Source: Paracoccaceae bacterium (GTDB taxonomy: Bacteria > Pseudomonadota > Alphaproteobacteria > Rhodobacterales > Rhodobacteraceae). From it: a stretch of DNA of 64,000 bases. Below are positions 12,495-59,668 of this stretch, one piece after another. The stretch is from positions 1-64,000 of the forward strand of contig JAHEJA010000028.1 of assembly GCA_024639125.1 (NCBI GenBank), read 5' to 3'. How positions within the stretch are numbered: position 1 is the first letter of the stretch; the number at the start of each line of letters is the position of its first letter. The notes under the pieces are model-generated. The model was not told the origin of the DNA. It made no database searches and worked only from the letters and a program-made list of their open reading frames with translations. The position numbers were made by a program, and so were the translations under genes.

Positions 12495-12495
12495 T

Positions 12496-15409: not shown

Positions 15410-15416
15410 TTGAATT

Positions 15417-22399: not shown

Positions 22400-22409
22400 T
22401 GCATCACGT

Positions 22410-33452: not shown

Positions 33453-33466
33453 TACGTTTAAGCTTC

Positions 33467-33497
33467 CTGAAGCCCCTTGGCGGGGCTTCAGTTTTCT
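33467..33497 (+). terminator. Terminator-like hairpin after the TRAP binding-protein gene
   Basis: CTGAAGCCCC / GGGGCTTCAG, a perfect 10-bp stem with a 5-nt loop (TTGGC), followed by TTTTCTTTT. It lies between dctP (stop 33452) and dctQ (start 33569) and would allow only partial readthrough. Confidence 0.85.
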
Positions 33498-33568
33498 TTT
33501 CCAACAATTTGTCTTGCTGATCCCGCTCACGCGCGGAACCAAGAGAGATGTGCATATTGGAGCTTTGA

Positions 33569-35427: not shown

Positions 35428-35437
35428 GACTCTCCCG

Positions 35438-38497: not shown

Positions 38498-38508
38498 TGG
38501 AGCCTAAT

Positions 38509-38826: not shown

Positions 38827-38838
38827 GGAGATAATTCC

Positions 38839-40020
38839 ATGGCTTCTAAATATTCAAATATGACAGTCAAAGCCTTCCGCCGCGAAAACGGCCGTGTTGG
38901 TGTGCGTAACCACGTTGTTATTCTTCCGGTTGACGATATTTCAAACGCGGCCTGTGAAGCGGTTGCAAACAACGTAAAAGGCACTTTGGCTATTCCTCAC
39001 GCCTATGGTCGTCTTCAGTTTGGCGAAGACCTTGATTTGCATTTCCGCACAATGATCGGCACAGGCGCAAACCCGAACGTCGCAGCTGTTGTCGTTATCG
39101 GCATCGAGCCAGGCTGGACCAAGCGCATCGCCGACGGTATCCGCGCAACAGGTAAACCCGTAGCGGAATTTTCAATCGAGCAAAACGGTGACTTTGAAAC
39201 CATCCGTCGCGCAAGCTGGGCTGCCAAAGATTTCGTTCACATGACATCTGAATACCAACGCGAAGAATGTTCAATCTCTGAGCTATGGGTTTCAACCAAA
39301 TGCGGTGAGTCCGATACAACAACAGGTCTTGGGTCTTGCCCAACTGTTGGCAACATGTACGACAAACTGCTTCCCGAAGGGATCACAGGTTTCTTTGGTG
39401 AAACGTCTGAAATCACAGGCGCAGAACACATCTGTAAAGAACGCGCAATCAACGCAGAAGTTGGCGAGCGCTGGTACAAAATGTGGAAAGCATACCAAGA
39501 TGACGTTATCTTTGCACACCAAACAGACGATCTTTCAGATAGCCAACCAACCAAAGGCAACATCGAAGGTGGCTTGACCACAATCGAAGAAAAAGCCTTG
39601 GGCAACCTAGAGAAAATCGGTCGTACATCCAAGTTCATCGACATTCTTGAACCAGCAGAAGCGCCAAAATCTGGCAACGGTCTATACTTTATGGACAGCT
39701 CCTCTGCGGCGGCGGAATGCGTAACATTGATGGCAGCGGGTGGTGCGGTGATCCACACTTTCCCAACTGGTCAAGGTAACGTTGTCGGGAACCCAATCGT
39801 TCCTGTTATCAAAATCACCGCGAACCCACGCACAGTACGTACAATGAACGAACACGTTGATGTGGACGTTTCTGGTATTTTGCGTCGCGAGATGACAATC
39901 GACGAAGCCGGTGATGCATTGATCGAAATGATCACACGCACAGCCAATGGCCGTAACACAGCAGCAGAAGCTCTTGGTCACCGCGAATTCTCGATGACCA
40001 AACTTTATCGCTCTGCATAA
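38839..40020 (+). CDS. suyB: (R)-sulfolactate sulfo-lyase, large subunit
   Basis: The 393-residue UxaA-family protein contains the family segments [39 protein letters not shown] and [19 protein letters not shown]; conserved Cys such as those in TKCG are likely metal ligands. With SuyA it cleaves the C-S bond of sulfolactate. The RBS AAGGAGATAATTCC lies 12 bases after suyA. A strong Rho-independent terminator follows directly, marking the end of the main DHPS transcript. Confidence 0.9.
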
Positions 40021-40030
40021 GGTAGGACAA

Positions 40031-40064
40031 GGCAGCATCCAGCATTGGGTGCTGCCGCTTTTTT
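40031..40064 (+). terminator. Rho-independent terminator after suyB
   Basis: GGCAGCATCC / GGGTGCTGCC (10-bp stem with one G-T) around AGCATT, then GCTTTTTT. The ATG of the next gene is only 4 bases past the T-run, so the downstream pair depends on readthrough or an undetected promoter. Confidence 0.9.
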
Positions 40065-40067
40065 GAT

Positions 40068-41078
40068 ATGACGGATACTGTTACCCTTTCGTTGGATGAT
40101 GCGACGTCATTAATCCAAAATGCTTTTGTCGCTTTGGGCGTTGACCAAACGGCATCGCTCTCTGTCGCCCGTGCTTTGGTCGAAGCCGAAGCAGACGGTC
40201 AAGTTGGACATGGGTTTTCCCGTCTTTCCGACTATATGGCCCAAGTTAAATCTGGCAAAATCAACAATGCCGCGAACATCACAACCAAGGCCGTTTATCC
40301 CGCCGCGCTTTTGACAGATGCGGATTGTGGATTTGCTTATGCGGCCATTGATCAAGCCATTGAACAAGGCATCACAGCCGCGCATACCTATGGTATTGCT
40401 GCCATGGCCATCGGAAATTCGCACCATTGCGGGTCACTTTCTATTCATGTTGAGAAAATAGCCAAAGCGGGTCTGATCGGGTTTATGGTCACAAATGCCC
40501 CCTCTGCGATTGCGCCTTGGGGTGGCACCAAACCCCTGTTTGGCACGAATCCAATTGCCTTTGCTGTACCGCGCCAAGGGCAAAATCCACTGGTGATTGA
40601 TATGTCGCTGTCTGTGGTTGCCCGCGGTAAAATCATGCATGCCGCCAAAACGGGGCAACCCATCCCCGAAGGCTGGGCCTTGGATTTGGATGGCAATGCG
40701 ACCACCAATCCCCAAGACGCCCTAAAAGGCACAATGGTTCCCGTAGGCGGACCCAAGGGAACGGCTTTGGCGCTTATGGTGGAAATTCTTTCTGCCTCGA
40801 TGACTGGGGCGAATTTCAGCTTTGAAGCCAGCTCTTTCTTTACCCCCGAAGGGCCATCGCCACGGATCGGGCATTACATCATCGCGATGAAGCCTGCCGA
40901 AGCGGAAACAAATTTTGCCCATCGTTTAGAAGTCTTGTTGTCAGAAATCGTATCCCAAGACGGGGCGCGATTGCCCGGAATGCGTCGTTTTGAAAAACGC
41001 GCGGACGCAGAACAACATGGTATCACCATACCGAAATCATATGTGGATTTGGCGCAGAGCATTGTGACTGCACCCTAA
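40068..41078 (+). CDS. comC: Sulfolactate dehydrogenase, ComC type (malate/lactate dehydrogenase 2 family)
   Basis: The 336-residue protein belongs to the type-2 malate/L-lactate dehydrogenase family, distinct from Rossmann MDH. Family marks are EADGQVGHGFSRL, IGNSHHCGSLSIH, NPIAFAVPRQG and GPKGTALALMVEILS. Its homologue ComC is an (R)-sulfolactate dehydrogenase interconverting sulfolactate and sulfopyruvate. Set between suyB and suyZ, that role fits well; ordinary malate or ureidoglycolate dehydrogenase is the alternative. ATG 40068 has no recognisable RBS because it directly follows a terminator T-run, so translation may be inefficient. Confidence 0.75.
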   Translation: MTDTVTLSLDDATSLIQNAFVALGVDQTASLSVARALVEAEADGQVGHGFSRLSDYMAQVKSGKINNAANITTKAVYPAALLTDADCGFAYAAIDQAIEQGITAAHTYGIAAMAIGNSHHCGSLSIHVEKIAKAGLIGFMVTNAPSAIAPWGGTKPLFGTNPIAFAVPRQGQNPLVIDMSLSVVARGKIMHAAKTGQPIPEGWALDLDGNATTNPQDALKGTMVPVGGPKGTALALMVEILSASMTGANFSFEASSFFTPEGPSPRIGHYIIAMKPAEAETNFAHRLEVLLSEIVSQDGARLPGMRRFEKRADAEQHGITIPKSYVDLAQSIVTAP

Positions 41079-41115
41079 ATTCATTCCCTAACTCAAAACG
41101 AAAGGCTGAAAAGCT

Positions 41116-42117
41116 GTGTTAACGTCTTATCGCGCGCAGGCGTCGCTCTTGTTTCCAGGAGTCTTGGTGTCTTTGATCGTCGCGCTCTCGGCACAATTTG
41201 TAGCCGATCATTACGGAGCACCAGCCATGTTGATGGCGCTGCTCTTTGGAATTTCGCTAAACTTTCTATCCGCCGAAGGCAAAACCGTCCAGGGTATCCA
41301 ATTCTGTGCGCGCACCGTTTTGCGTATTGGCGTTGCTCTCTTGGGGTTGCGCATCAGTGTTGCGATGATCTCTGACCTTGGGGTTCCCTTGGTCATGTTG
41401 GTGATCGCTGGCGTGGTCGCGACCATAGGAATCGGGCTATTGGTTGGCCCGCGTTTGGGTCACGGGCCGCGATTTTCATTTTTGACGGCGGGATCTGTGG
41501 CAATTTGTGGCGCCTCTGCTGCCATGGCGATTGCCGCCATTTTGCCCAAAGATGAACGCAGTGAACAAAGGCTGGTCTTTACCGTTGTTGGCGTCACCCT
41601 GTTGTCAACGATCGCAATGATCCTTTATCCAATTTTAGCCAGCTCCCTTGCCATGGATGACACCCAAACTGGCATATTCTTGGGCGCAACAATCCATGAC
41701 GTCGCCCAAGTGGTTGGTGCTGGATTTTCCGTATCCGAGTCAACAGGTGAAACCGCGACGTTGATCAAACTGTTTCGCGTGGCAATGTTGGCCCCCGTTG
41801 TGGTGATCGCAACCATGGTCATCCGCATGAACGTCAAAACAGAAGGCGACATGAAACAACCGCCGGTCTTGCCGTTTTTTGTGGTTGGATTTGTGGCGCT
41901 TGCGGCGTTGAATTCTATTGTCGCCTTGCCAGAGTTCGTCACCACAACCGCTGGCACATTGTCGCGTTGGGCATTGCTCACATCCATTGCTGCGGTTGGT
42001 ATGAAGACCAGCATCAAAGACGTCGCTCAAGTCGGCGGCGCGGCGATTGCGTTGATTGTTGTGGAAACTGTGTTTTTGGCTGGCTTTATCTTGATTGGTT
42101 TGGAACTTCTTCTTTAA
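41116..42117 (+). CDS. suyZ: Putative sulfite/sulfate exporter, YeiH/UPF0324 family
   Basis: The 333-residue inner-membrane protein has about ten hydrophobic helices and UPF0324 motifs: ARTVLRIGVALLGLRIS, GSVAICGASAAMAIAAI and GATIHDVAQVVGAGFSVSE. In organosulfonate clusters such proteins (SuyZ) are proposed to export the sulfite or sulfate released by sulfo-lyase. It begins at GTG 41116 with AAAGG somewhat far upstream. No sulfite dehydrogenase (SorA/SoeABC) is in the window, so the exporter may handle sulfite, or oxidation may be encoded elsewhere. Confidence 0.8.
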   Translation: MLTSYRAQASLLFPGVLVSLIVALSAQFVADHYGAPAMLMALLFGISLNFLSAEGKTVQGIQFCARTVLRIGVALLGLRISVAMISDLGVPLVMLVIAGVVATIGIGLLVGPRLGHGPRFSFLTAGSVAICGASAAMAIAAILPKDERSEQRLVFTVVGVTLLSTIAMILYPILASSLAMDDTQTGIFLGATIHDVAQVVGAGFSVSESTGETATLIKLFRVAMLAPVVVIATMVIRMNVKTEGDMKQPPVLPFFVVGFVALAALNSIVALPEFVTTTAGTLSRWALLTSIAAVGMKTSIKDVAQVGGAAIALIVVETVFLAGFILIGLELLL

Positions 42118-42176: not shown

Positions 42177-44423
<2,247 letters not shown>

Positions 44424-44457: not shown

Positions 44458-44472
44458 ATAAGAAATACTTAT
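44458..44472. promoter_or_regulatory. Inverted repeat at the oxyR start
   Basis: ATAAG-AAATA-CTTAT, a LysR-type dyad overlapping the oxyR start codon in the 131-bp katG/oxyR divergent region. It may serve autorepression. I cannot align a full four-part OxyR consensus with confidence. Confidence 0.4.
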
Positions 44473-45358
44473 GATAAACATCACTCTAAAACAAATGCGT
44501 TATTTCGCGACCCTATGTCGTTTGGGGCATTTCGGGCATGCCGCTGATATCTCAGCAATTTCCCAGCCAGCGTTGTCCATGCAAATCAAAAAACTAGAAG
44601 AAGAGCTGGGCACGCCCCTTATCGAACGCAGTGCAAAATCGTTTATTTTAACGCGGTTTGGTCATGAATTTCTGACCCAATGTCACAAAATCTTGGGCGA
44701 TGTGGATACGATTGAATTAATGGCCCGCGCGGCCCAACACCAAGAGATCGCAGCGCTCAACCTAGGCATTATCCCAACAATCGCGCCCTATCTACTGCCC
44801 CAGGTGTTGACGACTTTGGCACATCACCATCCAGAATTAGACATAAAAGTGCGTGAATCGCAGACCACTAATCTGGTAAAAGACATTCATGATGGCACTC
44901 TCGACATCGCGGTTTTGGCGCTTCCTCTTGGGGATCAACACCTAGAAGAAACGCTTATGTTCCAAGAAGACTTTGTTTTGGTGCGCCCAGTGCATGCCAA
45001 AAACATGCCCATCCCGGCACCCAGCTCATTTGCCAAATTACCTTGGTTGCTTCTGGAAGAAGGCCATTGCTTTCGCGATCAAGCCCTTGCCTTCTGTCAG
45101 CCAGATGTCAACGAACGCCGCCGCCATGATGCCAGCTCACTGTCAACTCTGGTGCAAATGGTCCAAGCGGATTTGGGCATCACGCTTATTCCCGAAATGG
45201 CGATCGACTTGGAAACCAGATCGACCACAGTTGATATCGTGCGCTTTGACACCGACACACCCAAGCGTGATATCGGGGTCATTTGGCGGAAATCGTCTCC
45301 CTTGGCTCACTCCTTTGCCAAAATCACCGAAACCCTGAGCACCGCAATGCAGCGTTAA
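44471..45358 (+). CDS. oxyR: Hydrogen peroxide-sensing regulator OxyR
   Basis: The 295-residue LysR-type regulator has the N-terminal helix-turn-helix (LGHFGHAADISAISQPALS) and the diagnostic redox segment LLEEGHCFRDQALAFC, with Cys200 and Cys209 corresponding to the peroxide-sensing pair of OxyR. The divergent katG is its expected target. The RBS is weak, consistent with low-level autoregulated synthesis. The 3' end overlaps the convergent SDR gene by 4 bases. Confidence 0.93.
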   Translation: MINITLKQMRYFATLCRLGHFGHAADISAISQPALSMQIKKLEEELGTPLIERSAKSFILTRFGHEFLTQCHKILGDVDTIELMARAAQHQEIAALNLGIIPTIAPYLLPQVLTTLAHHHPELDIKVRESQTTNLVKDIHDGTLDIAVLALPLGDQHLEETLMFQEDFVLVRPVHAKNMPIPAPSSFAKLPWLLLEEGHCFRDQALAFCQPDVNERRRHDASSLSTLVQMVQADLGITLIPEMAIDLETRSTTVDIVRFDTDTPKRDIGVIWRKSSPLAHSFAKITETLSTAMQR

Positions 45359-47381: not shown

Positions 47382-47843
47382 TTAGCGCAAAGCATCGGGC
47401 AAATTGGCAAGAGCCTCTTGAGCTGAAACAATGGGTAAATCGCTCTCGATCCAGCCTTTGATGTCTCCTTTGCCGACCATCCCGCCTTGGGTATCGACAA
47501 ACCCTTGTATCCCCGCTTTGCGGATTTGTTGCATCAAAAACCCCGTTCTGTTTGCGGTGCGACAGATCAAGGCAATGGGCCGTCCTTGGGCCAAATCGCG
47601 GGCGAGAAATATCTTTTTGCTGAAATCAGCCGAGGTCATATCCAACGGCCAAGCCCCTTTGGCCACGCCCGTTTGCGCCCATTCCTCTGGGCGGCGCACA
47701 TCGATGACACGAATTTCATCCGCTGCCAACGCCGCTTGAACTTGGTCAACCGACCAAACATCGCTCATCTGTGCAAAACCGGCGGTGGCGCATAGAGGCA
47801 TCATAGCGGCCCCATGTAGAAAACGACGACGCGAAAAAATCAT
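47382..47843 (-). CDS. TAT-exported rhodanese-like protein
   Basis: The 153-residue protein has a twin-arginine signal (FSRRRFLHGAAM, cleavage near GFAQ) followed by a single rhodanese domain: VIDVRRPEEWAQTGVAKGAW and the active loop ICRTANRTG with a catalytic Cys. Such periplasmic rhodaneses handle sulfane sulfur or act as sulfurtransfer partners. ATG 47843 has AGGACACAAAC upstream and begins at the signal; the longer frame lies in the cop promoter region. It stands divergent from copA, and a link to copper or thiol stress is possible but unproven. Confidence 0.85.
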   Translation of the reverse strand: MIFSRRRFLHGAAMMPLCATAGFAQMSDVWSVDQVQAALAADEIRVIDVRRPEEWAQTGVAKGAWPLDMTSADFSKKIFLARDLAQGRPIALICRTANRTGFLMQQIRKAGIQGFVDTQGGMVGKGDIKGWIESDLPIVSAQEALANLPDALR

Positions 47844-47992
47844 GTTTGTGTCCTTAATAAACGTAAAATCTGCCCACGACACATTTAGCCGTAAGCCCGC
47901 CGCTGATAATTCGCTTTGGGCGTGCTCCTGTTGTAATCGCCACACCCTAGACGTCAAGGCTCTGAGGTCGCGGGGATAAAGTCATTATGCCC

Positions 47993-48023
47993 TTGACCTT
48001 CTAGTTACTGGAAGGTCTATATG
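47993..48023 (+). promoter_or_regulatory. CueR-type promoter with 19-bp spacer
   Basis: The -35 TTGACC (47993-47998) and -10 TATATG (48018-48023) are separated by 19 bases, which hold the dyad GACCTTC-TAGTTACTG-GAAGGTC (47995-48017). The overlong spacer with a centred CCTTC/GAAGG dyad is the hallmark of MerR-family copper promoters. Transcription should start near 48030, so the in-frame ATG at 48021 cannot be the copA start. Confidence 0.9.
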
Positions 48024-48053
48024 CCGCTTATCTTCGTCACATTTGGACCTGTT

Positions 48054-50516
48054 ATGCCTATTTCTGTTACCCTCTCCCTTCAAGGAATGTCTTGCGGCGC
48101 GTGTTCTGCGCGTGTGGATCTAAAACTTTCTTCGATTGACAGTTTGTCAGACGTTGCGGTCAATCTAGCGGCCCAAACAGCGCGGTTTAGCCTGTCCGAT
48201 GGGGATGCGCTTGCCAATGTGGGAAAAACGCTCTCTGAGATGGGATATGCGGCCCGTATGGCCACAGTGACGCTAAATATCGCTGACATGAGCTGTGCGT
48301 CCTGTACGGGGCGCGTAGAGCGTGGATTGCGGCACATCCTGGGTGTGAGCGAGGCAAATGTGAACCTTGCCAGCAATACAGCCCAGATCACCTATTTCGA
48401 AGGGGTTACCGATCCTCTGGCGTTGGCGCAGGCGGTCACTGCCATGGGCTATCCTGCGACGCCACAGGCCGACGAAGCCCCCATCGACATCACCACCCGT
48501 ACCCAAGCCGAAGCAAAAACCATCGCGCGTCGTGCATTGATTGCAGGGCTTCTTGCGTTGCCTGTGGTCCTTTTGGAAATGGGATCGCATATGATCCCTG
48601 CCCTGCATATGCTGATAGAGCGCACAATCGGACAAACCAACAGCTGGATCCTACAATGCATTTTGACCACTTTGGTCATGATTTGGCCCGGACGGATATT
48701 TTACACCAAGGGTCTAAACGCACTGCGCCACCTAGCACCCGATATGAATTCCTTGGTCGCGCTTGGCACAGGTGCAGCGTATGGATATTCACTGGTTGCC
48801 ACGTTTTGGCCCAGCCTTTTGCCCGAGACATTGCGCGCCGTCTATTTCGAAGCAGCCGCCGTTATCATTGTGTTGATCCTTTTCGGGCGCTGGCTTGAAA
48901 CCCGCGCCAAAGGCCGCAGCGGTGCCGCCATTCAAAGCCTGCTTGGGCTGCAACCCCGAACCGCGCATGTCATCCGAAATGATGCCTTGCAAACCGTGGT
49001 GATCGCCCAACTAAGGGTCGGTGACATGCTGCTTATCAAACCCGGAGAGCGTTTGCCCGTGGATGGGGTGGTCTACGATGGCGACAGCCTTGTGGATGAA
49101 AGCATGATCACAGGCGAACCTATTCCCGTTGCCAAAACCAAAGGCGATATTATCACTGCTGGCACTGTGAATGGGGCGGCGAACCTGTTTGTGAACGCCA
49201 CCCATGTCGGGGCCGAAACGACCTTGGCGCATATCATCCGCATGGTGGAAACCGCCCAAGGCAGCAAGTTACCAATTCAAAGTCTGGTGGATCGCATCAC
49301 CCTATGGTTCGTGCCTGTGATCATCGGCTTGGCCTGTGCGACCGTTGGTGCCTGGATGGTCTTTGGCCCCGCGCCCGCCCTAAGTTATGCGTTGGTCGCC
49401 GGAGTATCCGTTTTGATCATTGCCTGCCCCTGTGCGATGGGATTGGCGACACCCACCTCGATTATGGTGGGCACGGGGCGCGCTGCACAAATGGGGGTTC
49501 TGTTTCGCAAAGGCGATGCTCTGCAACACCTAAGTGCCGTTGATGTCATCGCATTTGACAAAACTGGCACATTGACCCAAGGCCGCCCTGTGCTGAGCGA
49601 ATTCATCACCGCCAAGGGGTTTGATCGCAACACGCTTTTGGCGCGGATCGGTGCGATGGAAAACCAATCCCAGCACCCTATCGCCGCCGCCATCGTGCAG
49701 GCCGCCCAATCCCAAGGGATGATGTTCCCCAGCATAGACAAAATCACCCATGTGACGGGCTTTGGCATAGAAGCACAATTTGACGATGACATCTATCTGG
49801 TCGGTGCGGATCGGTTAATGCGCAAACACGGCGTCGATCTAAGCGACTGGGAGGACACCGAAACGAAACTGGCCGCTGACGGAAAAACGGTTCTCTATGC
49901 CGCGCAAAATGGTCAAATCGCTGCATTGATCGCCGTGAGCGATCCAATCAAAGACACAAGCTATGCGGCTATTCAGGCACTGAAAGCCCGTGGAATAGAG
50001 TTGGCAATGATCACTGGGGACAAACAAGAAACCGCAGACACTATTGCCCGCGCTTTGGGCATAACAACAGTAATTGCCGAAGTGCTACCTGATGGCAAAG
50101 TTGCGGCACTTGAGACGCTAAAAACCAAGGGGCGTGTGGCCTTTGTTGGGGATGGTATTAACGACGCTCCTGCCCTTGCCCATGCGGATATCGGGATCGC
50201 GCTTGGGACGGGTACAGATGTCGCCATCGAAAGTGCTGATGTCGTGTTGATGTCGGGTGATCTAGGCGGCGTTGTGAATGCGCTGTCTGTTTCGCGCCAC
50301 ACATTACGCAACATCAAACAAAACCTCGGATGGGCCTTTGGTTACAACGTGGCTTTGATCCCTGTCGCCGCCGGAGTGCTTTATCCGTTCTTTGGAATTT
50401 TACTCTCTCCGATTTTAGCAGCGGCTGCTATGGGCCTAAGTTCGATTTTCGTCGTAACCAATGCGCTGCGGCTGCGTCATTTGCGTCCAATGATAAATGC
50501 CAAGAAACCGCTATGA
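48054..50516 (+). CDS. copA: Copper-exporting P1B-type ATPase
   Basis: The 820-residue inner-membrane ATPase exports Cu(I). Two N-terminal metal-binding domains have GMSCGACS (Cys14, Cys17) and DMSCASC (Cys81, Cys84). Eight transmembrane helices follow, with the translocation motif CPC at 458-460. The actuator loop has TGEP, phosphorylation Asp502 is in DKTGT, the nucleotide-binding HP motif is in SQHPIAAA, and GDGINDAPAL ends the core. I start at ATG 48054 because the mapped CueR promoter's -10 overlaps ATG 48021. The stop overlaps cueR by 4 bases. Confidence 0.94.
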   Translation: MPISVTLSLQGMSCGACSARVDLKLSSIDSLSDVAVNLAAQTARFSLSDGDALANVGKTLSEMGYAARMATVTLNIADMSCASCTGRVERGLRHILGVSEANVNLASNTAQITYFEGVTDPLALAQAVTAMGYPATPQADEAPIDITTRTQAEAKTIARRALIAGLLALPVVLLEMGSHMIPALHMLIERTIGQTNSWILQCILTTLVMIWPGRIFYTKGLNALRHLAPDMNSLVALGTGAAYGYSLVATFWPSLLPETLRAVYFEAAAVIIVLILFGRWLETRAKGRSGAAIQSLLGLQPRTAHVIRNDALQTVVIAQLRVGDMLLIKPGERLPVDGVVYDGDSLVDESMITGEPIPVAKTKGDIITAGTVNGAANLFVNATHVGAETTLAHIIRMVETAQGSKLPIQSLVDRITLWFVPVIIGLACATVGAWMVFGPAPALSYALVAGVSVLIIACPCAMGLATPTSIMVGTGRAAQMGVLFRKGDALQHLSAVDVIAFDKTGTLTQGRPVLSEFITAKGFDRNTLLARIGAMENQSQHPIAAAIVQAAQSQGMMFPSIDKITHVTGFGIEAQFDDDIYLVGADRLMRKHGVDLSDWEDTETKLAADGKTVLYAAQNGQIAALIAVSDPIKDTSYAAIQALKARGIELAMITGDKQETADTIARALGITTVIAEVLPDGKVAALETLKTKGRVAFVGDGINDAPALAHADIGIALGTGTDVAIESADVVLMSGDLGGVVNALSVSRHTLRNIKQNLGWAFGYNVALIPVAAGVLYPFFGILLSPILAAAAMGLSSIFVVTNALRLRHLRPMINAKKPL

Positions 50517-50899
50517 ATATTTCCGATGTTGCCAAAGCCTCTGGCTTGCCAGCCAAAACAATCCGCTATTACGAAGATATAGGATTGCTCACACCGCAAC
50601 GTGCGCAAAACGGATACCGCAGCTTTAGCGACCGCGATTTGCACAAGCTGACCTTTTTAGGCCGCGCCCGCGCATTGGGATTTTCGATTGATATCTGCCG
50701 AACGCTCTTGGCTCTTTACGAAGACGACAGCCGCGAAAGCGCACAGGTCAAAGCATTGGCCCAAGACCACCTAAAAGCCATAGACGACAAAGTTGACCAA
50801 TTGCTTTCAATGCGTCGGACATTGGCAAATTTGATCGACAGCTGCGCCGGAGATCAACGCCCGGATTGCCCGATATTGGCGGATTTAGGGAAACTTTAA
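50513..50899 (+). CDS. cueR: Copper-responsive MerR-family regulator
   Basis: The 128-residue regulator has the MerR winged helix (MNISDVAKASGLPAKTIRYY), a coiled-coil dimerisation helix and the metal loop CAGDQRPDC, with Cys111 and Cys119 spaced as in CueR. It distorts the 19-bp-spacer promoter upstream of copA when Cu(I) binds. It overlaps copA by ATGA, so the operon is self-regulated. A longer frame from 50330 lies entirely in copA and is rejected. Confidence 0.93.
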   Translation: MNISDVAKASGLPAKTIRYYEDIGLLTPQRAQNGYRSFSDRDLHKLTFLGRARALGFSIDICRTLLALYEDDSRESAQVKALAQDHLKAIDDKVDQLLSMRRTLANLIDSCAGDQRPDCPILADLGKL

Positions 50900-51022: not shown

Positions 51023-52132
51023 TTATCCATGACTTGAATCAAGCAGGCGATGTAATTCTTCGAGTGCGGTTTCAACCATTACGCGGTCAACTTGCTTGCC
51101 GGAAATGCGGATATAATGGCCTTTGCCGTCAGTTTCTTGCCGAAGAACGATCCCGTTCTGCAAACGCCGTTCTTGAAGTACACGGTTTGCTTTATCGGCT
51201 TTGGGACGCCCGCCTTTGCTTGGCGAATCCGCGGCCTGTTCGAATTGGCGCAGCACCGGTTCCATTGCGGCTATGTCTTCGGCTGCCGAACCACCCCGTG
51301 CCATATCCAAAGCGTCACGCAGGGCATTTGCCCCACCCAAACGCAACACGTTCGCCAATCGCAAACCAAAGCGTTCGCTGATCGTTTCCGGTTGAGTCAG
51401 CAAATCGCCAAGGTCTTCGAAGACTTGGGAAAAGCTTCTGATTTTTGATCGTTTGGCTTTGGACCCAGATGCAAACAATGTGTTCACGGCCTCTTCGACA
51501 TTGGCAAACGTTCCGTTCTGAGCGCTAAGCGCAGCGATACGCCCCCGTTCAAAATGGCTAAGATTGGCGCGGATTTCGTTTTCTTCAACCATCGCAACAA
51601 TCGCAGCGGACCCATCTTTGGGCGCGCGAATGAAACATTTGATCGTTGAAAATTTAGTCGCCTGCGTCATGCCAAACAAGGTCTTGACCGCAAGCAATCT
51701 GCGATAACCAGACAAGACGCCATATTTGTACGCATCATGCGCCGACGCTTGGCGTTCATAGATTTCGATGGGCAACCGAAGACCATTTGCCAAAATGCTT
51801 TTGCGCAGCTCCTCCATGTCTTCGTCGTCTAGAATGATCCGATCACGGGTCATGTCATCCGGATCGATTTCAGAGATAGGAATTTCAGCAAGCACAAGGC
51901 CCCTAGCCTGAGCATCGCGAAGGGTTTCGGCATCCTTTGCATCCCGCGCCTGCGCTGCACGGCTATTGGTATCAAGTACGGGCGCAGAAGACGCAACATC
52001 CGCCGCCACCTGTGCGATCGGAGGGGTAAGACTTGCTGAACGATTTTGTGGTGTGGTTTCGCTGCGAAACTCTTCTTCTATGCGCACCAAATCTTCGGGT
52101 TTGGGCATTTCCAATTTACGACGCTTTGCCAT
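51023..52132 (-). CDS. parB: Plasmid partitioning protein ParB
   Basis: The 369-residue DNA-binding partition protein has the ParB/Spo0J N-terminal region (IPISEIDPDDMTRDRI, LRLPIEIY), a conserved block around VEENEIRANLSHFERGRIAAL, a central helix-turn-helix and a lysine-rich linker before the C-terminal dimerisation part. It binds parS and works with ParA encoded 3 bases upstream. The RepB-like N-terminus (MAKRRKLEMPKPEDL) resembles roseobacter plasmid proteins. Adjacent iterons and a Rep protein make chromosomal Spo0J unlikely. Confidence 0.9.
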   Translation of the reverse strand: MAKRRKLEMPKPEDLVRIEEEFRSETTPQNRSASLTPPIAQVAADVASSAPVLDTNSRAAQARDAKDAETLRDAQARGLVLAEIPISEIDPDDMTRDRIILDDEDMEELRKSILANGLRLPIEIYERQASAHDAYKYGVLSGYRRLLAVKTLFGMTQATKFSTIKCFIRAPKDGSAAIVAMVEENEIRANLSHFERGRIAALSAQNGTFANVEEAVNTLFASGSKAKRSKIRSFSQVFEDLGDLLTQPETISERFGLRLANVLRLGGANALRDALDMARGGSAAEDIAAMEPVLRQFEQAADSPSKGGRPKADKANRVLQERRLQNGIVLRQETDGKGHYIRISGKQVDRVMVETALEELHRLLDSSHG

Positions 52133-52135
52133 GAT

Positions 52136-53521
52136 TTATGCCTCCTCTTCTTTCAACATTTGCTCGTCTCGCCACCACGTTCCGAGCAAGATTTCTTTGA
52201 CCTCACCCCAAGTCCGATCAAACGCTTCCCGACCCCGCGCATAAGTATCGCGGTTAAATTCACGGTAATCAATTTCATAGATACCGCTGACCTGCTCGCC
52301 GGCTTGACCGACAAGAGCTGTGAAATCTTGGCGATAGGTGGTCATAAAGTCGCCAAAATATGCTTGGATAACATTCGCCAAATCCGTTTGCTGACCGGCA
52401 TCAAACCGCGTGATCAGCGCACGTACGGCATCCCATTCAAACTTGATCTCGGGAAGCCCATCGCGCCGACGTTGCGAATTTTCACCGTCCTCGATTGATG
52501 AAAAGGTCGAATAGAGCATATCAAAAAACCGGCCTGTTGAATCAAATTCTAAGAAAGATGCCCCCAAAGGAACGAGCAAAATATCAGCCGCCGAAAGCGC
52601 ATTGATCGTCAAATAGCCAAGGGCAGGGGGCGTATCGAGCAGAATAATATCGTAGCTGTCCAGCAATCCTTCGCTTTCAAGAAAGCCTTGTAGAGCATCC
52701 CACAGCGGCCAGTTTCGGGCCTGCATGCGCCAAACCGGAACTTGGAATTCGGCCCAATAGAGGTTCAGCTGGGCACCGATAAGATCGATATTTGGCCAAT
52801 GCGTTGATTGAATGACATCCTGCGCGCGTATCTTTAAGGCTTCGGTAAGGGTTTCATCCAAGGGCAGGGGCGTGTGACCAGCGGCTTCGCGGACTTTGTT
52901 TTCCTCTAGCACATGGGCTGCATAATGCTTGGCCATCAAAGGAAAGGCTGTTTGCCATTCGTCTTCGACTGTGCCGCCCATAATCGAGGTCATTGATCCC
53001 TGACTGTCCAAATCGACAACCAACACCCGATACCCGTCCAATGCGGCAGACATCGCTATATGTGCCGCGGTGCTGGTTTTGCCAACGCCACCCTTAAAAT
53101 TGGCAACGGCGATTGTCTTGGCTTGCACACCTTTGGGACGATAAGAGCGGTAGTTTTTATTTGCGGCCCCTTCTTGGGCAAAGTGATTTCGCAAAAGCAC
53201 CACTTCTTCTAATGTGAACCATTTCGCGCCGCCCTCGCCTTCGCCTTGGGGCAAATCTGGATGCGCTTTTAACACCCGGCGAAAATGGGCAGGGGCCACA
53301 GGAATAAGATATTTGCAGATTTCCCAAGTGGAAAATTTACGCAGCCGCTTTTTCCCATCTGGGGAATATCCCCGCTTGGCAAGGTCATCTCGACCTCGCG
53401 CCACAAAGGCCGCAGCCTTGGCAAAGCGGGACGTGTCAACAGGCCCAGCAAGCTTTTCAGCTGCCTGTGCTGGATCGATGTTTAGAAATTTTGGATGGTC
53501 ATCCGAAGACTTTGTCGTCAT
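52136..53521 (-). CDS. parA: Plasmid partitioning ATPase ParA
   Basis: The 461-residue ATPase has an N-terminal extension of about 130 residues with a winged-helix-like region (FSTWEICKYLIPVAPAHFRR), then the deviant Walker A KGGVGKTSTAA (143-153), VLVVDLDSQGSMT and the Walker B region IILLDTPPALGYL. Long N-terminal DNA-binding extensions are typical of type Ia plasmid ParA, which also autorepress. It moves ParB-parS complexes on the nucleoid. The palindrome TATGCGCATA at 53554-53563, 33 bases upstream of its start, is a candidate operator. Confidence 0.92.
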   Translation of the reverse strand: MTTKSSDDHPKFLNIDPAQAAEKLAGPVDTSRFAKAAAFVARGRDDLAKRGYSPDGKKRLRKFSTWEICKYLIPVAPAHFRRVLKAHPDLPQGEGEGGAKWFTLEEVVLLRNHFAQEGAANKNYRSYRPKGVQAKTIAVANFKGGVGKTSTAAHIAMSAALDGYRVLVVDLDSQGSMTSIMGGTVEDEWQTAFPLMAKHYAAHVLEENKVREAAGHTPLPLDETLTEALKIRAQDVIQSTHWPNIDLIGAQLNLYWAEFQVPVWRMQARNWPLWDALQGFLESEGLLDSYDIILLDTPPALGYLTINALSAADILLVPLGASFLEFDSTGRFFDMLYSTFSSIEDGENSQRRRDGLPEIKFEWDAVRALITRFDAGQQTDLANVIQAYFGDFMTTYRQDFTALVGQAGEQVSGIYEIDYREFNRDTYARGREAFDRTWGEVKEILLGTWWRDEQMLKEEEA

Positions 53522-53553
53522 AATATACCTATGATGTGCTCTGTTTTATTGTA

Positions 53554-53563
53554 TATGCGCATA
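53554..53563. promoter_or_regulatory. Palindrome upstream of parA
   Basis: TATGCGCATA is a perfect 10-bp palindrome 33 bases ahead of the parA start, within a slightly offset ATGTGC...GCACAT repeat (53534-53575). It may be a ParA operator or part of parS. Confidence 0.45.
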
Positions 53564-53738
53564 AACATGGCACATGAAAATGAAAAAGTGAATCACAGAA
53601 TAGAGTTTCCCAAGTAAATTCTAAATATTCAGGAAAAGCAACGCACTATAGTTGAAGTATATTTAGTAATCTTTATAGACTTTGCTTAGAAAAAATTATT
53701 TTTTATCAATAGGTTACATTAGTTTGGGTATCCGAATA

Positions 53739-53830
53739 CGGGTTCAAGGGTGACCAATCACGGGATCAAGGGCACCAATTTACAGGATTAAGGACTCCGA
53801 TTCTCGGGTTTAAGGGAGACCAGATTCGGG
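53739..53830 (+). repeat. Iteron array, 22-bp units (plasmid origin)
   Basis: Four direct repeats of exactly 22 bp begin at 53739, 53761, 53783 and 53805, and a fifth truncated copy at 53827. Each starts CGGG (once CAGG) and follows with a TnAAGG core and then a CC(A/G)A-type element. Such iterons bind Rep_3-family initiators and set copy number. The AT-rich stretch just before (53630-53710) is a candidate unwinding element. Confidence 0.88.
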
Positions 53831-53897
53831 AATAGCAAGATTAGAGACTGTTTTTTCCTACATTAGACCCTGTTTGACATTTCTACCCAATTCTATG

Positions 53898-53976
53898 CTC
53901 TTGGGTCTCCTGTAGATTGGTACCTTTGTTTCTGGGAACAGGATGTCAAAGGGACCCGTTTACAGGAACCTAAGAG
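53898..53976. promoter_or_regulatory. Long inverted repeat before rep (possible Rep operator)
   Basis: CTCTTGGGTCTCCTGTAG at 53898-53915 pairs, with a gap and a few mismatches, with TTACAGGAACCTAAGAG at 53960-53976. A further CAGGA-containing element lies at 53939. Inverted copies upstream of rep genes commonly serve Rep autorepression; here that is inferred. Confidence 0.55.
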
Positions 53977-53980
53977 CGAC

Positions 53981-54008
53981 TTGTTTTGAGGTGCCTTTGT
54001 AGTATACT
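53981..54008 (+). promoter_or_regulatory. Predicted rep promoter
   Basis: TTGTTT (53981-53986) and TATACT (54003-54008) with a 16-bp spacer, 26 bases upstream of the rep ATG. It lies next to the inverted repeat, as expected for an autoregulated initiator gene. Confidence 0.6.
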
Positions 54009-54034
54009 GCTGTGAAAAAGAACAGAGCAGACAT

Positions 54035-55213
54035 ATGAATACGATTCGATCAGAAACGCTTCCTGGGGCGTTACGGCGCGAAACCGTCAAAAAGAATGTG
54101 GCGGCAATCCATGTATCCGGAAAGCTGACGTTATTGCAGCGCAAGCTTTCGAATGTGCTGTTGCTGAATGCTTATGACACCTTGATGAGCCGGCAAAGCC
54201 ATAAAATAGATGCGCGGACGTTGTGTTTGATGATCGGGTATAATTCCAATGATATGGAAACGCTCAAGGCATCGTTGCGCGGCTTGGCAGAGACCGTTGC
54301 GGAATGGGACATGCTCGATGATCAGGGCCGTCAGGAATGGGGTGTTTCCGCGCTTTTGTCGTTTGCAAAACTCAAAGAGGGGGTTTGTGAATATGCCTAT
54401 TCGCCCGCCTTGGCAGAAAAGCTGCATGACCCCAAAGTGTTCGCGCTTATTAATTTAAACATCCAACGCCAGTTTACGGGCGGCCATGCGCTTGCGCTTT
54501 ATGAAAACTGTTTTCGGTTTGTTAAAACGGGCAGCACTGGTTGGTGGGATATTGATATTTTTCGCCGGCTTATGGGGGTTGAGGAGTCTGAATATTATAA
54601 ATCCTATAAGCACCTGAACGCGAAAATCATCAAACCTGCGGTCGCCGAAGTCAACAAAGTCAGCGATATCATCGTCACGCCCGAGATCCGCAAACAGGGG
54701 CGGACCGTGTCACATATTCGGTTTTTAATCCGCAACAATCCACAGCTGTCGATTATCGACATTGATGACGGGGCAGGGGTGCGTAACACGAATGTATATG
54801 ATCAGTTGCGCGGGCTAGGCGTGTCTGATCGATTGGCCCGTCAATGGATCGGTGAACATGGAGAAGACTATGTGAGCCAAAAAATCGACTATGTTGCCGC
54901 CCAATCGGGTGTCAAAAATGCCGCTCGGTATCTAAGCGTGGCGATTGCCAATGATTTTAGCGACACCCCCGCAATCGAGGTCGCAAAACCAACCTCTGAA
55001 CGGGCGGTGCGGTTGGCGCGCATTCAGAAAATTGTTGCGTCGCGGTCCCCCACACAACGGGATGCGGACAAGCGGTTGTTTCTGTCACAATTGAAATCAA
55101 ACAGTGAACGCGATGATTTTGAACGTCATGCGTGGATGTCTGCGATCAATCATGCGGCTATTGTTGCTTTTTGGAACGACCTTATGCCCGACGCATTACA
55201 GGCCGACATCTAA
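54035..55213 (+). CDS. Plasmid replication initiator, Rep_3 family (RepB-type)
   Basis: The 392-residue initiator has the two winged-helix layout of the Rep_3 family. The first domain opens with VKKNVAAIHVSGKLTLLQRK, and the second includes IDIFRRLMGVEESEYYKSY and AVAEVNKVSDIIVTPEIRKQ. A C-terminal tail of about 150 residues follows. It binds the iterons just upstream to open the origin. In roseobacter nomenclature this type is usually called RepB, though automatic pipelines may say RepA. Iterons, promoter, inverted repeat and the divergent parAB operon form a complete replicon module. The stop overlaps the convergent flavoprotein gene by 4 bases. Confidence 0.88.
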   Translation: MNTIRSETLPGALRRETVKKNVAAIHVSGKLTLLQRKLSNVLLLNAYDTLMSRQSHKIDARTLCLMIGYNSNDMETLKASLRGLAETVAEWDMLDDQGRQEWGVSALLSFAKLKEGVCEYAYSPALAEKLHDPKVFALINLNIQRQFTGGHALALYENCFRFVKTGSTGWWDIDIFRRLMGVEESEYYKSYKHLNAKIIKPAVAEVNKVSDIIVTPEIRKQGRTVSHIRFLIRNNPQLSIIDIDDGAGVRNTNVYDQLRGLGVSDRLARQWIGEHGEDYVSQKIDYVAAQSGVKNAARYLSVAIANDFSDTPAIEVAKPTSERAVRLARIQKIVASRSPTQRDADKRLFLSQLKSNSERDDFERHAWMSAINHAAIVAFWNDLMPDALQADI

Positions 55214-57255
55214 AGCGTGCGCACCAATCGCAAGGCATCGTAAATTGCCGCATGGGTATTGCGTGACGAAACCGCATCGCCAATGCGGAATAGGTCAAAC
55301 GCCCCCTTATTATTTTTGACAATTGTTTGCGGCTGCCCTTGGATAAGCGCGTCATAGTCCACTTGGCCTAGATTACGGGCGTGGGGTTTTAGATCGAAAT
55401 ACAGATCGGCATTTGGCTGCGTGCCATAATTCACCACGATCTGATCATAGTGTTTGTCTTGGACCAAGTCGCTATAATCGGTGCCAATCTGGGCGCATAG
55501 TTGGTTGCCGTCCCGTGTGATCCCCTTTAGCCTTCGGGTGACGGTGAATGTGACGTCTTTGTCCTGAAGTGTGCGCATATAGGGCACAAGGTTCATGCCT
55601 TTTATTTCGGGGGCAAAGCTGCGATCTGGGGTCATAATTTCAACGGTTGATCCCGCAAGGGCCGCGATTTCCGCAGCCTGAAGGCCCGCATGATCGCCAG
55701 CCGCATCAAAGATCAGCATACGATTGGCCGGTTTCACATCACCAGACAAGATATCCCATGCGCTGATAGCCAAATCTTGATCCTTGGTGTTTTCGTAAAG
55801 CCGCATATGCGGCACTCCGCCAGTGGCAATTATAACGATATCCGGCGCAAGGGCGGTGATATCGCTGGCTTCTGCCCAGGTGTTGAAATGAAAATGCACG
55901 TCACGGGCGGCGCATTGGGCCATGCGCCAATCAATGATCGACATCATTTCACGGCGTCGCGGGGTTTGGGCCGTTAGCCGAATTTGTCCTCCGGCATCGC
56001 TTGCGGCTTCGAATACGGTCACAGAGTGACCCCGCTCCGCAGCGACGCGCGCGGCTTCTAATCCGGCGGGGCCAGCGCCAACAATGACCACAGTTTTGGG
56101 CGTTTGGCTGGGTGCGATGTCGTGCGGTTGTGTCAATTCGCGCCCTGTTGAGGGGTTGTGGATACACAATGCTTCGCCGCCTTCGTAAATACGATCCAAA
56201 CAATAGGTGGCGCCCACGCAGGGGCGAATATCATCTTCGCGCCCTTCCATGATTTTACGCACGATATGCGGATCTGCCATATGTGCGCGGGTCATTCCCA
56301 CCATATCAAGCAAGCCACTGGACACCGCATGGCGTGCGGTTGCCACGTCGGGGATGCGGGCCGCGTGGAATGTGGGCAGCCCGATTTCGGCCTTGATGGC
56401 GCCGGCAAAGTCCAGATGCGGGGCTGATTTCATGCCTTGGACCGGAATGACATCCACCAAAGCCGGATCGGAATGCACGCGCCCCCGGATTACATTCAGG
56501 AAATCCACCAATTTGTCATCAGCCAGCGTTTTGGCAATCTGAAAGCCTTCGTTTGCAGTCAGGCCACCTTGTTCTGCTTCGTCGCCCACCAGCCGAATGC
56601 CAACAATAAAGTCTGGCCCAACGCGTTTGCGCACAGCCGAGAGGACATCAATGGAAAATTGCATACGGTTCTTTAGTGACCCAACGCCATAAGGCCCGTT
56701 TAGTTCGTTCGACAAAGGCGACCAGAATTGGTCCATCAAATGCCCGTATGCTTCGATTTCGATGCCATCCATGCCACCGGCTTGCATGCGTTCTGCGGCA
56801 TCTGCATAGTCATTTATGATCCGCTCAATATCCCAATCTTCGATTAACTTGGGGAAAAACCGATGCGCCGCCTCGTAATGCTGCGTGGGCGCAACAGAGG
56901 GAAGCCAATCGCCTTTGGACCACCCTGTGCGACGTCCAAGGTGGGTCAATTGAATCATCATCGCACATCCATGGGCATGACAAGCATCCGTCATACGGCG
57001 GATCCACGGCACCACGTCGTCTTTGTAAGCCAGTACATTGTTAAACGCAGGCGGGCTGTCGCGCGACACAATCGCCGATCCTGCCGTCATCGCCATTGCA
57101 ATACCCGCTTTGGCGCGTTCTTCGTGATAGGCGCGGTAGCGATCCTTGGGCATGCCATCTTCGGGGTAGGCGGGTTCATGACTGGTCGTCATAATCCGGT
57201 TTTTCAACGTCAAATGTTTCAGCTGATAGGGCTGCAAAAGCGGATCATGAGACAT
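55210..57255 (-). CDS. Trimethylamine dehydrogenase-like FMN/FAD oxidoreductase
   Basis: The 681-residue enzyme has an N-terminal old-yellow-enzyme TIM barrel (residues 1-340: MMIQLTHLGRR, GIEIEAYGHLMDQFWSPLSN), a short iron-sulfur loop, and a C-terminal FAD/ADP-binding part with GAGPAGLEAARVAAERG. It aligns with trimethylamine and dimethylamine dehydrogenases and with proteins annotated as N-methylproline demethylase. The iron-sulfur region RPCVGATYC (Cys346, Cys352) and GEALC (Cys364) has Ala349 where TMADH has a cluster Cys. ATG 57255 has RBS GGGGAG. Oxidative demethylation of an N-methyl compound is likely; the substrate is uncertain. Confidence 0.8.
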   Translation of the reverse strand: MSHDPLLQPYQLKHLTLKNRIMTTSHEPAYPEDGMPKDRYRAYHEERAKAGIAMAMTAGSAIVSRDSPPAFNNVLAYKDDVVPWIRRMTDACHAHGCAMMIQLTHLGRRTGWSKGDWLPSVAPTQHYEAAHRFFPKLIEDWDIERIINDYADAAERMQAGGMDGIEIEAYGHLMDQFWSPLSNELNGPYGVGSLKNRMQFSIDVLSAVRKRVGPDFIVGIRLVGDEAEQGGLTANEGFQIAKTLADDKLVDFLNVIRGRVHSDPALVDVIPVQGMKSAPHLDFAGAIKAEIGLPTFHAARIPDVATARHAVSSGLLDMVGMTRAHMADPHIVRKIMEGREDDIRPCVGATYCLDRIYEGGEALCIHNPSTGRELTQPHDIAPSQTPKTVVIVGAGPAGLEAARVAAERGHSVTVFEAASDAGGQIRLTAQTPRRREMMSIIDWRMAQCAARDVHFHFNTWAEASDITALAPDIVIIATGGVPHMRLYENTKDQDLAISAWDILSGDVKPANRMLIFDAAGDHAGLQAAEIAALAGSTVEIMTPDRSFAPEIKGMNLVPYMRTLQDKDVTFTVTRRLKGITRDGNQLCAQIGTDYSDLVQDKHYDQIVVNYGTQPNADLYFDLKPHARNLGQVDYDALIQGQPQTIVKNNKGAFDLFRIGDAVSSRNTHAAIYDALRLVRTL

Positions 57256-57401
57256 GCGAAGACTCCCCTGTTTTTGGGATAGCCTATCCAGACAGGGCAC
57301 AAAGACAAGTAAAAGACCGACATCGCGTGTCGTGTTTTGAAAAACATGCTGACCGAGCGTGGTACGAAATGCGCCGCCTAACCGTCATGCAGAAGGTTGA
57401 A

Positions 57402-57454: not shown

Positions 57455-59668
57455 TTACCCGATGATGGCGTTCAAGGTTGCGCTTGGTCGCATGACCCCT
57501 GCAACTTTGGCGCTGTCTGCGTGGTAATACCCTGCCAAGTCCGCTGGTTTACCTTGAACAGCAGCCAGTTCAGCCACGATTTTTTCTTCGTTTTCAGCCA
57601 AGGCGGCGGCGATTGGGGCAAAATGTGCGGCCAACTCTGCGTCATCTGTTTGCGCGGCAAGGGCTTGTGCCCAGTATTTCGCGAAATAGAAATGGCTGTC
57701 ACGGTTGTCTGGTTGACCAACGCGGCGCGATGGGGATTTGTTGTTGTCCAAAATCCCTTGGGTTGCGGCATCAACCGCAGCGCCCAAAACGGCTGCTTTC
57801 GGGTTGTTTTTGACTTCGGCGAGGAAGTTCAAAGATTCCCCAAGTGCGCAGAATTCCCCAAGTGAATCCCAACGCAGGTGGTTTTCTTCTACCAGCTGTT
57901 GCACGTGTTTCGGAGCAGAGCCGCCAGCGCCTGTTTCAAACAAGCCGCCGCCATTCATCAATTTCACAATCGACAACATTTTAGCAGAGGTGCCAAGTTC
58001 CAAGATCGGGAACAAGTCAGTCAGGTAATCGCGCAAAACGTTGCCCGTGATTGCGATGCTGTCTTGGCCTGTGCGGATGGTTTCTAGTGTGAGGCGTGTT
58101 GCTTCGCGTGGGGCCATGATCTGGAATTTGTCCGCCACGCCTTTTTCAGCAAGGATCGCGTTGACGTATGTGATCAATTCTGCATCATGTGCGCGCTGTG
58201 CATCCAGCCAAAAGATCGCTTGGGATCCTGTTGCCGCTTGGCGGGCAATAGCAAGGTTCACCCAGTCGATGATTGGTGCTTTTTTAGCAGAAGAAGACCG
58301 CCAAATATCGCCAGCTTCCACGGTATGAGTGTGGATCACATCGCCATTTGCCACAACGTAGCGCACAGTTCCGTTTGCCGACATTTCAAATGTTGTTGGG
58401 TGGCTGCCGTATTCTTCGGCTTTTTGCGCCATCAAGCCCACGTTGCCGACTGTGCCGGATGTTGTTGGATCAAGCGCACCCGTTTCTTTGAAATATTTGA
58501 TGGATTCATCATAAACAGGGGCATAGCAATTGTCAGGGATCACACATTTTGTGTCGCCTTCCTTGCCATCTGGACCCCAGCCTTTGCCGCCGGCGCGAAT
58601 GACCGCTGGCATCGAAGCGTCGATAATCACATCGGATGGCACATGAAGGTTGGTGATGCCCTTGTCAGAATTCACCATGTACATGTCTGGCTGTGCGTCC
58701 ATGGCTGCGTTGAAATCTGCAACGATTTCGGGCTTGTCTGCGATCCGGGCAAGCACGTCCCCTAGACCAGAGTTCGGGTTCACACCAGCCGCCGCAAGCG
58801 CATCGGCATGTTTTGCAAACACATCTTCAAAGAACACAGAAACCGCGTGACCAAAAATGATTGGGTCAGAGACCTTCATCATGGTGGCTTTCATGTGGAG
58901 CGAAAACAAGATGCCTTGGTATTTGGTGTCTTTGATTTCTGCCCGCAGAAAATCACGCAAGGCTTTGGCGGACATGAATGTTGCGTCCACCACGGTGCCT
59001 TCTGGCAAATCAATTCCGTCTTTCAAGACAGTGACATCACCGTTTTCAGCGATGAATTCAATTTTGGCTTTGCCCGCTTGCGCAGCTGTAAGGGTCGCGG
59101 ATTGTTCGTTGGAATAGAAATCGTTTCCAGACATTGCAGCCACGTGCGTTTTTGAATCTTTGCTCCAAACGCCCATGGAATGTGGGTTTTTCATTGCATA
59201 GTTTTTCACAGCGCGTGCCGCGCGGCGATCAGAGTTGCCTTCGCGCAAGACAGGATTCACAGCAGAGCCTTTGATCGTGTCGTATTTTGCACGAACTGCT
59301 TTTTCTTCGTCTGTGGATGGGTTTTCTGGATAATCAGGAAGCGCATACCCTTGGGATTGCAATTCTTTTACTGCGGCAACCAACTGAGGCACAGAGGCCG
59401 AGATGTTTGGAAGCTTGATCACATTGGCGTCGGGTGTTTTCACCAACTGGCCCAATTCCGCCAAATCGTCTGATTGGCGCTGATCTTCGCTTAGATAGTC
59501 CGGAAATGTCGAAATGATTCGGCCTGCAAGGGAAATGTCCTTGGTGCCAACGGTGACACCGGCGGCCTTTGCGAAAGTGCGAATGATAGGAAGCAGAGAC
59601 GCGCTGGCCAATTCTGGGGCTTCGTCTACAATTGTATACAATATATCAGCTTTTGATGTATCGGCCAT
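57455..59668 (-). CDS. icd: Monomeric NADP-dependent isocitrate dehydrogenase
   Basis: The 737-residue protein matches the monomeric (type II, about 740 residues) isocitrate dehydrogenase, unrelated in length to the common 400-residue homodimer. Characteristic segments are [70 protein letters not shown] and [13 protein letters not shown]. It converts isocitrate to 2-oxoglutarate with NADPH formation in the cytoplasm. RBS GGAAAGG precedes ATG 59668. A TCA-cycle gene close to a plasmid-type origin is noteworthy. A palindrome matching the GntR-side operator lies within its first codons (59631-59642). Confidence 0.93.
59631..59642. promoter_or_regulatory. GntR-type palindrome inside the start of icd
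   Basis: ATTGTATACAAT is a perfect 12-bp palindrome of the kind bound by FadR/VanR-type GntR proteins. It overlies codons 9-13 of icd and matches 11 of 12 bases of the site upstream of the GntR gene. Confidence 0.6.

Follow-up and report, generated by a model that had tools for sequence, protein, structure and literature searches.

According to PMC4373377, the complete RepB-I module of Dinoroseobacter shibae was amplified as a 4553-bp fragment and, once cloned, served to cure this species of its 72-kb chromid, pDSHI05 (NC_009959 in strain DFL 12), which PLSDB types as non-mobilizable. PMC9025767 uses four criteria for a chromid, namely the presence of parAB, a GC content within 2.5% of that of the chromosome, chromosome-like codon usage and tetranucleotides, and a copy number below 2. 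Here, we analyzed a window of 64,000 bp from a Paracoccaceae bacterium (assembly GCA_024639125.1, contig JAHEJA010000028.1, positions 1 to 64,000), which contains at 51023-55213 a replication and partition module about the size of the one published for D. shibae. We consider it likely that a RepB-I chromid has its origin, initiator, and partition locus in this segment, and that the surrounding contig represents most of that chromid. The more specific proposal, for which we see roughly even chances, is that a ~100-kb RepB-I-driven replicon serves as an obligate second chromosome, with the only icd, CysNC (sulfate activation), and IlvD (valine/isoleucine dehydratase) genes and one of the rRNA operons of a rhodobacteracean host of 2.75 Mb and ~50% GC, while relatives keep these genes elsewhere.

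The module comprises three open reading frames (ORFs), all of them intact, in which the parAB operon is divergent from rep and the 513-bp spacer between parA and rep holds two kinds of repeats:

51023-52132, minus strand: parB, centromere-binding partition protein of 369 aa (Pfam ParB_N, 27.2 bits against a cut-off of 26.3)
52136-53521, minus strand: parA, partition ATPase of 461 aa (Pfam AAA_31, E = 9.8e-31; CbiA)
53738-53847, plus strand: iterons, 22-bp direct repeats forming the probable Rep-binding origin (tandem-period test)
53848-54025, unstranded: long imperfect inverted repeat that follows the iterons and precedes rep, a probable Rep autoregulation site (arms 53848-53928 and 53947-54025)
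54035-55213, plus strand: rep, RepB-I replication initiator of 392 aa (Pfam Rep3_N and Rep3_C)

A sequence-only reading of this DNA had proposed a Rep_3 initiator with divergent parAB, and both the ORFs and their Pfam matches bear this out. Rep shared 71% identity with the RepB-I initiator from pDSHI05, against 28% across 211 aa with the RepB-III protein from pDSM107133_h. ParA was 77-81% identical to the ParA of the RepB-I plasmids compared, for ParB the corresponding figure was ~47-51%, and the best matches to ParB, encoded beside RepB-I in other genera, were ~47-54% identical. Judged by these similarities, the module is of the RepB-I replicon type of Rhodobacteraceae; it is complete for replication and partition and, taken by itself, ordinary. 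Some match to Rep (E of 0.001 or better) was present in 96 of 394 sampled family genomes, its own included, the strong matches being ~65-76% identical and the remainder weaker. Among the best 80 of 208 Rep relatives confirmed in a scan of named genomes, 75 loci had parA divergent from rep, the spacer between them measuring 200-1200 bp. Additionally, Rep matched 999 plasmid records, 169 of these at 60-80% identity.

Four iterons are clear (starts 53738, 53760, 53782, and 53804; span 53738-53825), while the fifth, at 53826-53847, is degenerate and retains only its first bases, so that the five copies in exact register claimed previously were a slightly generous count of a repeat whose 22-bp period stands. 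When periods of 10-59 were tried, 22 was the best tandem period of the spacer, with 45 of 66 lag-22 matches, a score reached by none of 2000 dinucleotide shuffles. It was also the best period in 71 of 75 related loci, and a match of more than 10 bits to the window's iteron was found in 72 of 75 related spacers. That 22-bp iterons are a RepB-I hallmark is our own observation and does not come from a paper. The inverted repeat, previously described as autoregulatory-looking, is likewise real, with a score of 40 against a shuffle mean of 18 and no shuffle among 1000 as good; the signal was weaker in relatives, where 35 of 75 exceeded the 95th percentile of the shuffles. For iterons and inverted repeat alike, the shuffles ruled out a chance origin. 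In other Rep_3 systems, Rep binds iterons to open the origin, and a Rep dimer represses its own promoter. By analogy, Rep would here bind the 22-bp iterons and open the origin, and its dimer would probably repress its own promoter at the inverted repeat, which is probably the autoregulation site; from homology, ParA and ParB would segregate a low-copy replicon.

The source genome is a draft of 79 contigs, 2.75 Mb in total and 96% complete, and the window covers bases 1-64,000 of a contig of 71,319 bp, termed C39 (C5 and C33 are the adjoining contigs, and G-numbers denote sampled family genomes). As to the circularity check proposed in the sequence-only reading, the two ends of C39 do not overlap each other, and closure by such a direct overlap was rejected. 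Exact 121-bp overlaps were found at 28 contig-end pairs across the assembly, and these placed C5 (5.9 kb) on the left end of C39 and C33 (18.3 kb) on its right end, each joined end having a single partner. The resulting scaffold, C5-C39-C33, comprises 95,225 bp, and both of its joins are read through by ORFs, namely ilvD and a second ORF. Moreover, icd and the molybdopterin-hydroxylase genes of C33 lie on a common contig in the relatives G139 and G222, which agrees with the C39-C33 join. Near the left end of the scaffold, a tRNA-Met(CAT) occupies bases 34-110 of C5, and the 113 bp at the C5 start that include this tRNA and its flank recur at 99% at the end of contig C72. A tRNA-Met(CAT) follows the 5S rRNA of a complete rRNA operon on all three plasmids examined (two of them RepB-I; our pick from 469 matching records), and we therefore read the left end as the 3' end of an rRNA operon, which, from the tRNA placement on these other plasmids, the scaffold probably abuts. 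The replicon would measure ~95-101 kb, made up of the scaffold and a stretch missing from the assembly, probably one rRNA operon.

The GC skew of the contig and scaffold changes at the module. The minimum on C39 is:

53417, unstranded: cumulative GC-skew minimum of C39 alone, 321 bp from the first iteron

On the scaffold, the minimum fell in the same place, and the sign of the skew flipped at parAB-rep and flipped back ~46-50 kb away. When four-fold sites were compared on each gene strand separately, a single change point fitted best between parB and parA, followed by parA-rep, with 3 of 1000 permutations as good. When two change points were left free (strand-stratified four-fold sites), they were placed at parB-rep and at scaffold positions 9,983-13,969, and none of 120 permutations did as well; genes were taken from a simple longest-ORF script and treated as exchangeable in the permutations. 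When the scaffold was treated as a circle and detrended, its skew peaked 46.8 kb away from the iterons, half of the scaffold length being 47.6 kb. In contrast, when the first and last 20 kb of each of 25 other contigs of at least 40 kb were compared as controls, the skew sign agreed in 24, and the two values differed by at most 0.154, compared with 0.249 across the iterons (20 kb on each side). In three complete RepB-I plasmids of our choice that served as positive controls, from D. shibae, Sagittula, and Pacificitalea, the detrended skew minimum was 1.3-1.9 kb from the origin. Because the skew flips at parAB-rep, unlike that of the control contigs, the RepB origin has probably functioned, and the scaffold resembles the greater part of a single small circle. 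Replication would, as the skew indirectly suggests, run bidirectionally from the iterons and end roughly half a circle away.

By a definition said to go back to Harrison et al. in 2010, a chromid bears core genes that are located on the chromosome in related species. For icd, CysNC, and equivalog IlvD alike, the one copy found in this genome sits on the scaffold, each statement of a sole copy being bounded by the 96% completeness, and the replicon should therefore be essential. The isocitrate dehydrogenase gene lies just beyond the module:

57455-59668, minus strand: icd, monomeric NADP isocitrate dehydrogenase (TIGR00178 over cut-off)

It is the sole PF03971 match in the genome, in which the sole full PF00180 protein is leuB, and in one-contig relatives such as G069 and G323 icd is on that single contig. 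CysNC, with CysD adjoining, has no second copy in the genome, the other matches being 26-35% identical. The scaffold ilvD passes both ilvD equivalog models. The three other ILVD_EDD proteins of the genome are edd, L-arabinonate dehydratase, and a member of the PRK13017 subfamily; the latter is named dihydroxy-acid dehydratase, yet falls below both ilvD equivalog cut-offs, so that it may provide a back-up activity.

The scaffold carries parAB, and its GC content is 50.7%, versus 49.6% in the other contigs in hand, our stand-in for the chromosome. Its codon usage (relative synonymous codon usage distance 0.460) falls within that of random contig sets (0.484 ± 0.120), and nine 9-kb scaffold pieces lay at the 30th-92nd percentile of tetranucleotide distance. 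The strongest codon-usage and tetranucleotide outlier among the contigs listed was C42 (15 kb), possibly reflecting highly expressed translation genes.

Comparison with other RepB-I loci involved the genes flanking the module, among them the following:

47382-47957, minus strand: rhodanese-like protein (Pfam Rhodanese)
48021-50516, plus strand: copper-type P-ATPase (TIGR01511 over cut-off)
55210-57300, minus strand: OYE-type NADH:flavin oxidoreductase, tail-to-tail with rep (65% identical to the counterpart of Sagittula sp. P11 in the same place)

pDSHI05 shares the divergent layout, with ParA 81% and ParB 47% identical in addition to Rep, and its skew minimum is near rep. Unlike the scaffold, it has no icd or ilvD annotated or matched, and it was curable according to PMC4373377, whereas the scaffold has genes that should be essential. 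The 110-kb plasmid unnamed4 of Sagittula sp. P11 (NZ_CP021917; Rep 71%) has, besides the oxidoreductase, an ilvD ~7 kb from rep, but the remaining cargo is mostly different, the GC content is 67%, and no icd is annotated or matched. A monomeric icd was present ~10 kb from rep on plasmid unnamed1 of Alloyangia pacifica YSBP01 (NZ_CP022191; Rep 70%), which differs in that it is larger (497 kb) and the icd follows flagellar genes. In Pelagimonas varians, rep is followed by homologues of ilvD (75%), the rhodanese (48%), and the copper ATPase (58%). Two further RepB-I plasmids, pSMR1-2 (NZ_CP022417; Rep 72%) and pDSM109990_a (NZ_CP085145), each bear a full 16S-tRNA-23S-5S-tRNA operon, as we infer beside C5, and, unlike the scaffold, have transposase genes in the stretches read. 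On pSMR1-2, the rRNA operon is ~3 kb from parB. In PMC9025767, pDSM109990_a appears among the RepB-I plasmids, with MOBP, and not as a chromid. More broadly, 11 of 70 scaffold proteins, versus 36 of 1327 from the other contigs in hand, had matches of at least 50% identity in the 80 RepB-I neighbourhoods (Fisher p = 9e-6; proteins of at least 150 aa, module excluded, neighbouring genes not being independent). Two small contigs outside the scaffold, C3 (6.4 kb) and C60 (10.0 kb), matched RepB-I neighbourhoods of other genera at this identity with four of five and five of nine proteins, respectively, and may be pieces of another plasmid.

The proposed chromid with single-copy core genes is of a known kind, and its cargo is unusual; in the open-access literature searched, we found no paper that joins isocitrate dehydrogenase, chromid, plasmid, and Rhodobacterales. 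Among the matches listed, icd and a RepB-I match shared one contig in G097, G273, G331, G380, and G395, and were on different contigs in many others, for example G173, G339, G263, and G099.

Several observations weigh against the chromid. With respect to assembly, the outer scaffold ends (the right end of C33 and the left end of C5) have no assembled partner, and the scaffold probably adjoins an rRNA operon; as for a junction with the chromosome, what we found is one end that probably abuts such an operon and another without partner. With respect to relatives, in the genome G200, which is 99% complete, four separate contigs hold ilvD, cysNC, the luciferase-like cluster, and icd; three of these contigs reach at least 310, 238, and 336 kb, as would be the case for chromosomal genes. 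No Rep match was among those listed for G200, G139, or G222 (the latter two ~81% complete), and relatives whose icd is closest have the scaffold's core genes spread over several contigs. This scatter implies either that the genes moved onto the replicon or that the replicon joined the chromosome. Because only single genes and short blocks matched in a synteny comparison with four relatives, the scaffold was not placed by gene order. Seven of its nine pieces were at or above the 77th tetranucleotide percentile, none of them past the 92nd. The skew has weaknesses as well: in Sagittula, the skew of the 20 kb to the left of the origin is +0.010; the skew maximum is 21 kb (D. shibae) and 29 kb (Sagittula) from the origin and not opposite to it, which among the positive controls it is only in Pacificitalea; and pooling the strands around a fixed origin flattens the terminus, positions of 10-21 kb lying within 3.4 log-likelihood ratio units. 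Finally, because skew reflects past history, a recent cointegrate would give the same picture.

The last point leads to the alternative that fares best, in which the replicon has recently been integrated in the main chromosome, perhaps via rRNA-operon recombination, and has retained its own skew and module. A precedent is given in PMC13386836, where long reads showed a 280-kb ParAB-bearing plasmid of Sulfitobacter pontiacus CB2047 to be integrated in the chromosome at an rrn locus; the scaffold resembles it in ParAB and a probable link to an rrn operon, and differs in size and in that integration was shown there. Such an event would fit the tRNA-Met(CAT) and flank common to C5 and C72, as at the end of an rRNA operon, the position of this tRNA behind 5S rRNA on the three plasmids, and the long contigs that carry the core genes in G200 without Rep among the matches listed. 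The second skew change, however, is ~46-50 kb from the origin, near the terminus expected for a circle of scaffold length, and the left border of an integrated element would have to coincide with that position by chance. Furthermore, two RepB-I plasmids deposited as separate circular records bear a complete rRNA operon. On balance, we regard recent integration as unlikely.

We find it very hard to credit that the plasmid replication module alone was inserted in an ordinary chromosomal region, as a passive or decaying remnant. The flanks are indeed metabolic, and several of their genes are on other, long contigs in relatives, but all three ORFs are intact, the skew minimum lies beside the iterons with no such flip in the control contigs, and neighbours recur near RepB-I elsewhere (the oxidoreductase in Sagittula; ilvD, rhodanese, and copper ATPase in Pelagimonas; icd in Alloyangia). 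It is similarly improbable that the element is a conventional accessory, mobile plasmid, even though its module is of a type common on plasmids (169 of the 999 Rep-matching records at 60-80%), given the single-copy core metabolic genes, a GC content and codon usage like those of the genome, and the lack of any transfer or transposition family among the matches for 77 of 78 scaffold ORFs.

The same findings bear on what the sequence-only reading made of the locus. A full replication and partition module gains support from GC skew and from the comparison with RepB-I plasmids, as does, together with the single-copy core genes, the idea of an essential extrachromosomal element, while its description as possibly mobile lacks such support, given the absence of transfer, mobilization, and transposition families among the matches and the genome-like composition and codon usage. 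The module was also placed inside a metabolic region: its flanks are metabolic, but the region is most likely the replicon itself and not a chromosome holding a plasmid module. Matches shown for the 77 ORFs scanned (Pfam or NCBIfam, E limits from 0.001 to 1e-15, one ORF in part; the 139-aa ORF at 29814-30233 was left out) included no transposase, integrase, relaxase, or conjugation family, in line with the earlier statement that transposon remains are lacking, and eight scanned ORFs had no Pfam or NCBIfam match.

If the chromid is confirmed, a small RepB-I replicon with sole copies of central metabolic genes of its host would clearly exemplify a plasmid turned chromosome. The well-studied RepB-I chromid of D. 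shibae is curable, as PMC4373377 reports, and so does not show how such a plasmid turns indispensable. The GC-skew signature at the RepB-I origin can be sought in other draft genomes, and gene content alone cannot class the metabolic genes of such contigs as chromosomal or accessory.

The remaining cargo of the window is largely metabolic:

4213-10805, plus strand: sugar ABC transporter and alpha-amylase-family enzyme, the agl region of the sequence-only reading (Pfam SBP_bac_1, two BPD_transp_1, Alpha-amylase, ABC_tran)
10831-16436, minus strand: myo-inositol catabolism cluster with iolD, KduI/IolB family, PfkB kinase, aldolase, and LacI regulator (TIGR04377 over cut-off; Pfam)
32316-42117, plus strand: TRAP transporter, histidinol-dehydrogenase-like, SDR, zinc-ADH, and further sugar-acid genes (Pfam DctP, DctQ, DctM, Histidinol_dh, adh_short, ADH_zinc_N, GD_AH_C, Ldh_2), the DHPS region of the sequence-only reading, a putative role
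42177-44423, minus strand: katG catalase/peroxidase (TIGR00198 over cut-off)
44471-45358: OxyR-like LysR regulator beside katG (below OxyR cut-offs)
50330-50899, plus strand: MerR-family regulator, cueR-like, adjoining parB (Pfam MerR_1, MerR-DNA-bind)

Aliiroseovarius sp. Z3 has homologues of katG and the OxyR-like regulator (70% and 50%) no more than 5 kb away from rep. A TRAP large permease in the window, at 21605-23771, was 90% identical to a Leisingera aquimarina gene ~8-10 kb from rep, the top identity of any scaffold protein to RepB-I neighbourhoods, and its IclR-type neighbour was 68% identical to a gene near rep in the same species; the permease match suggests, as far as sequence identity can indicate, a recent exchange between RepB-I replicons. 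For a cluster at the right-hand end of C33, an assignment as CO dehydrogenase was rejected, its large subunit being below every NCBIfam cut-off and scoring best on hydroxybenzoyl-CoA reductase and xanthine-dehydrogenase models; because of these scores, we call it no more than a molybdopterin hydroxylase. Finally, two PLSDB entries, NZ_CP119140.1 and NZ_CP119142.1, are Neisseria gonorrhoeae records of ~2.17 Mb and are chromosome-like by size.

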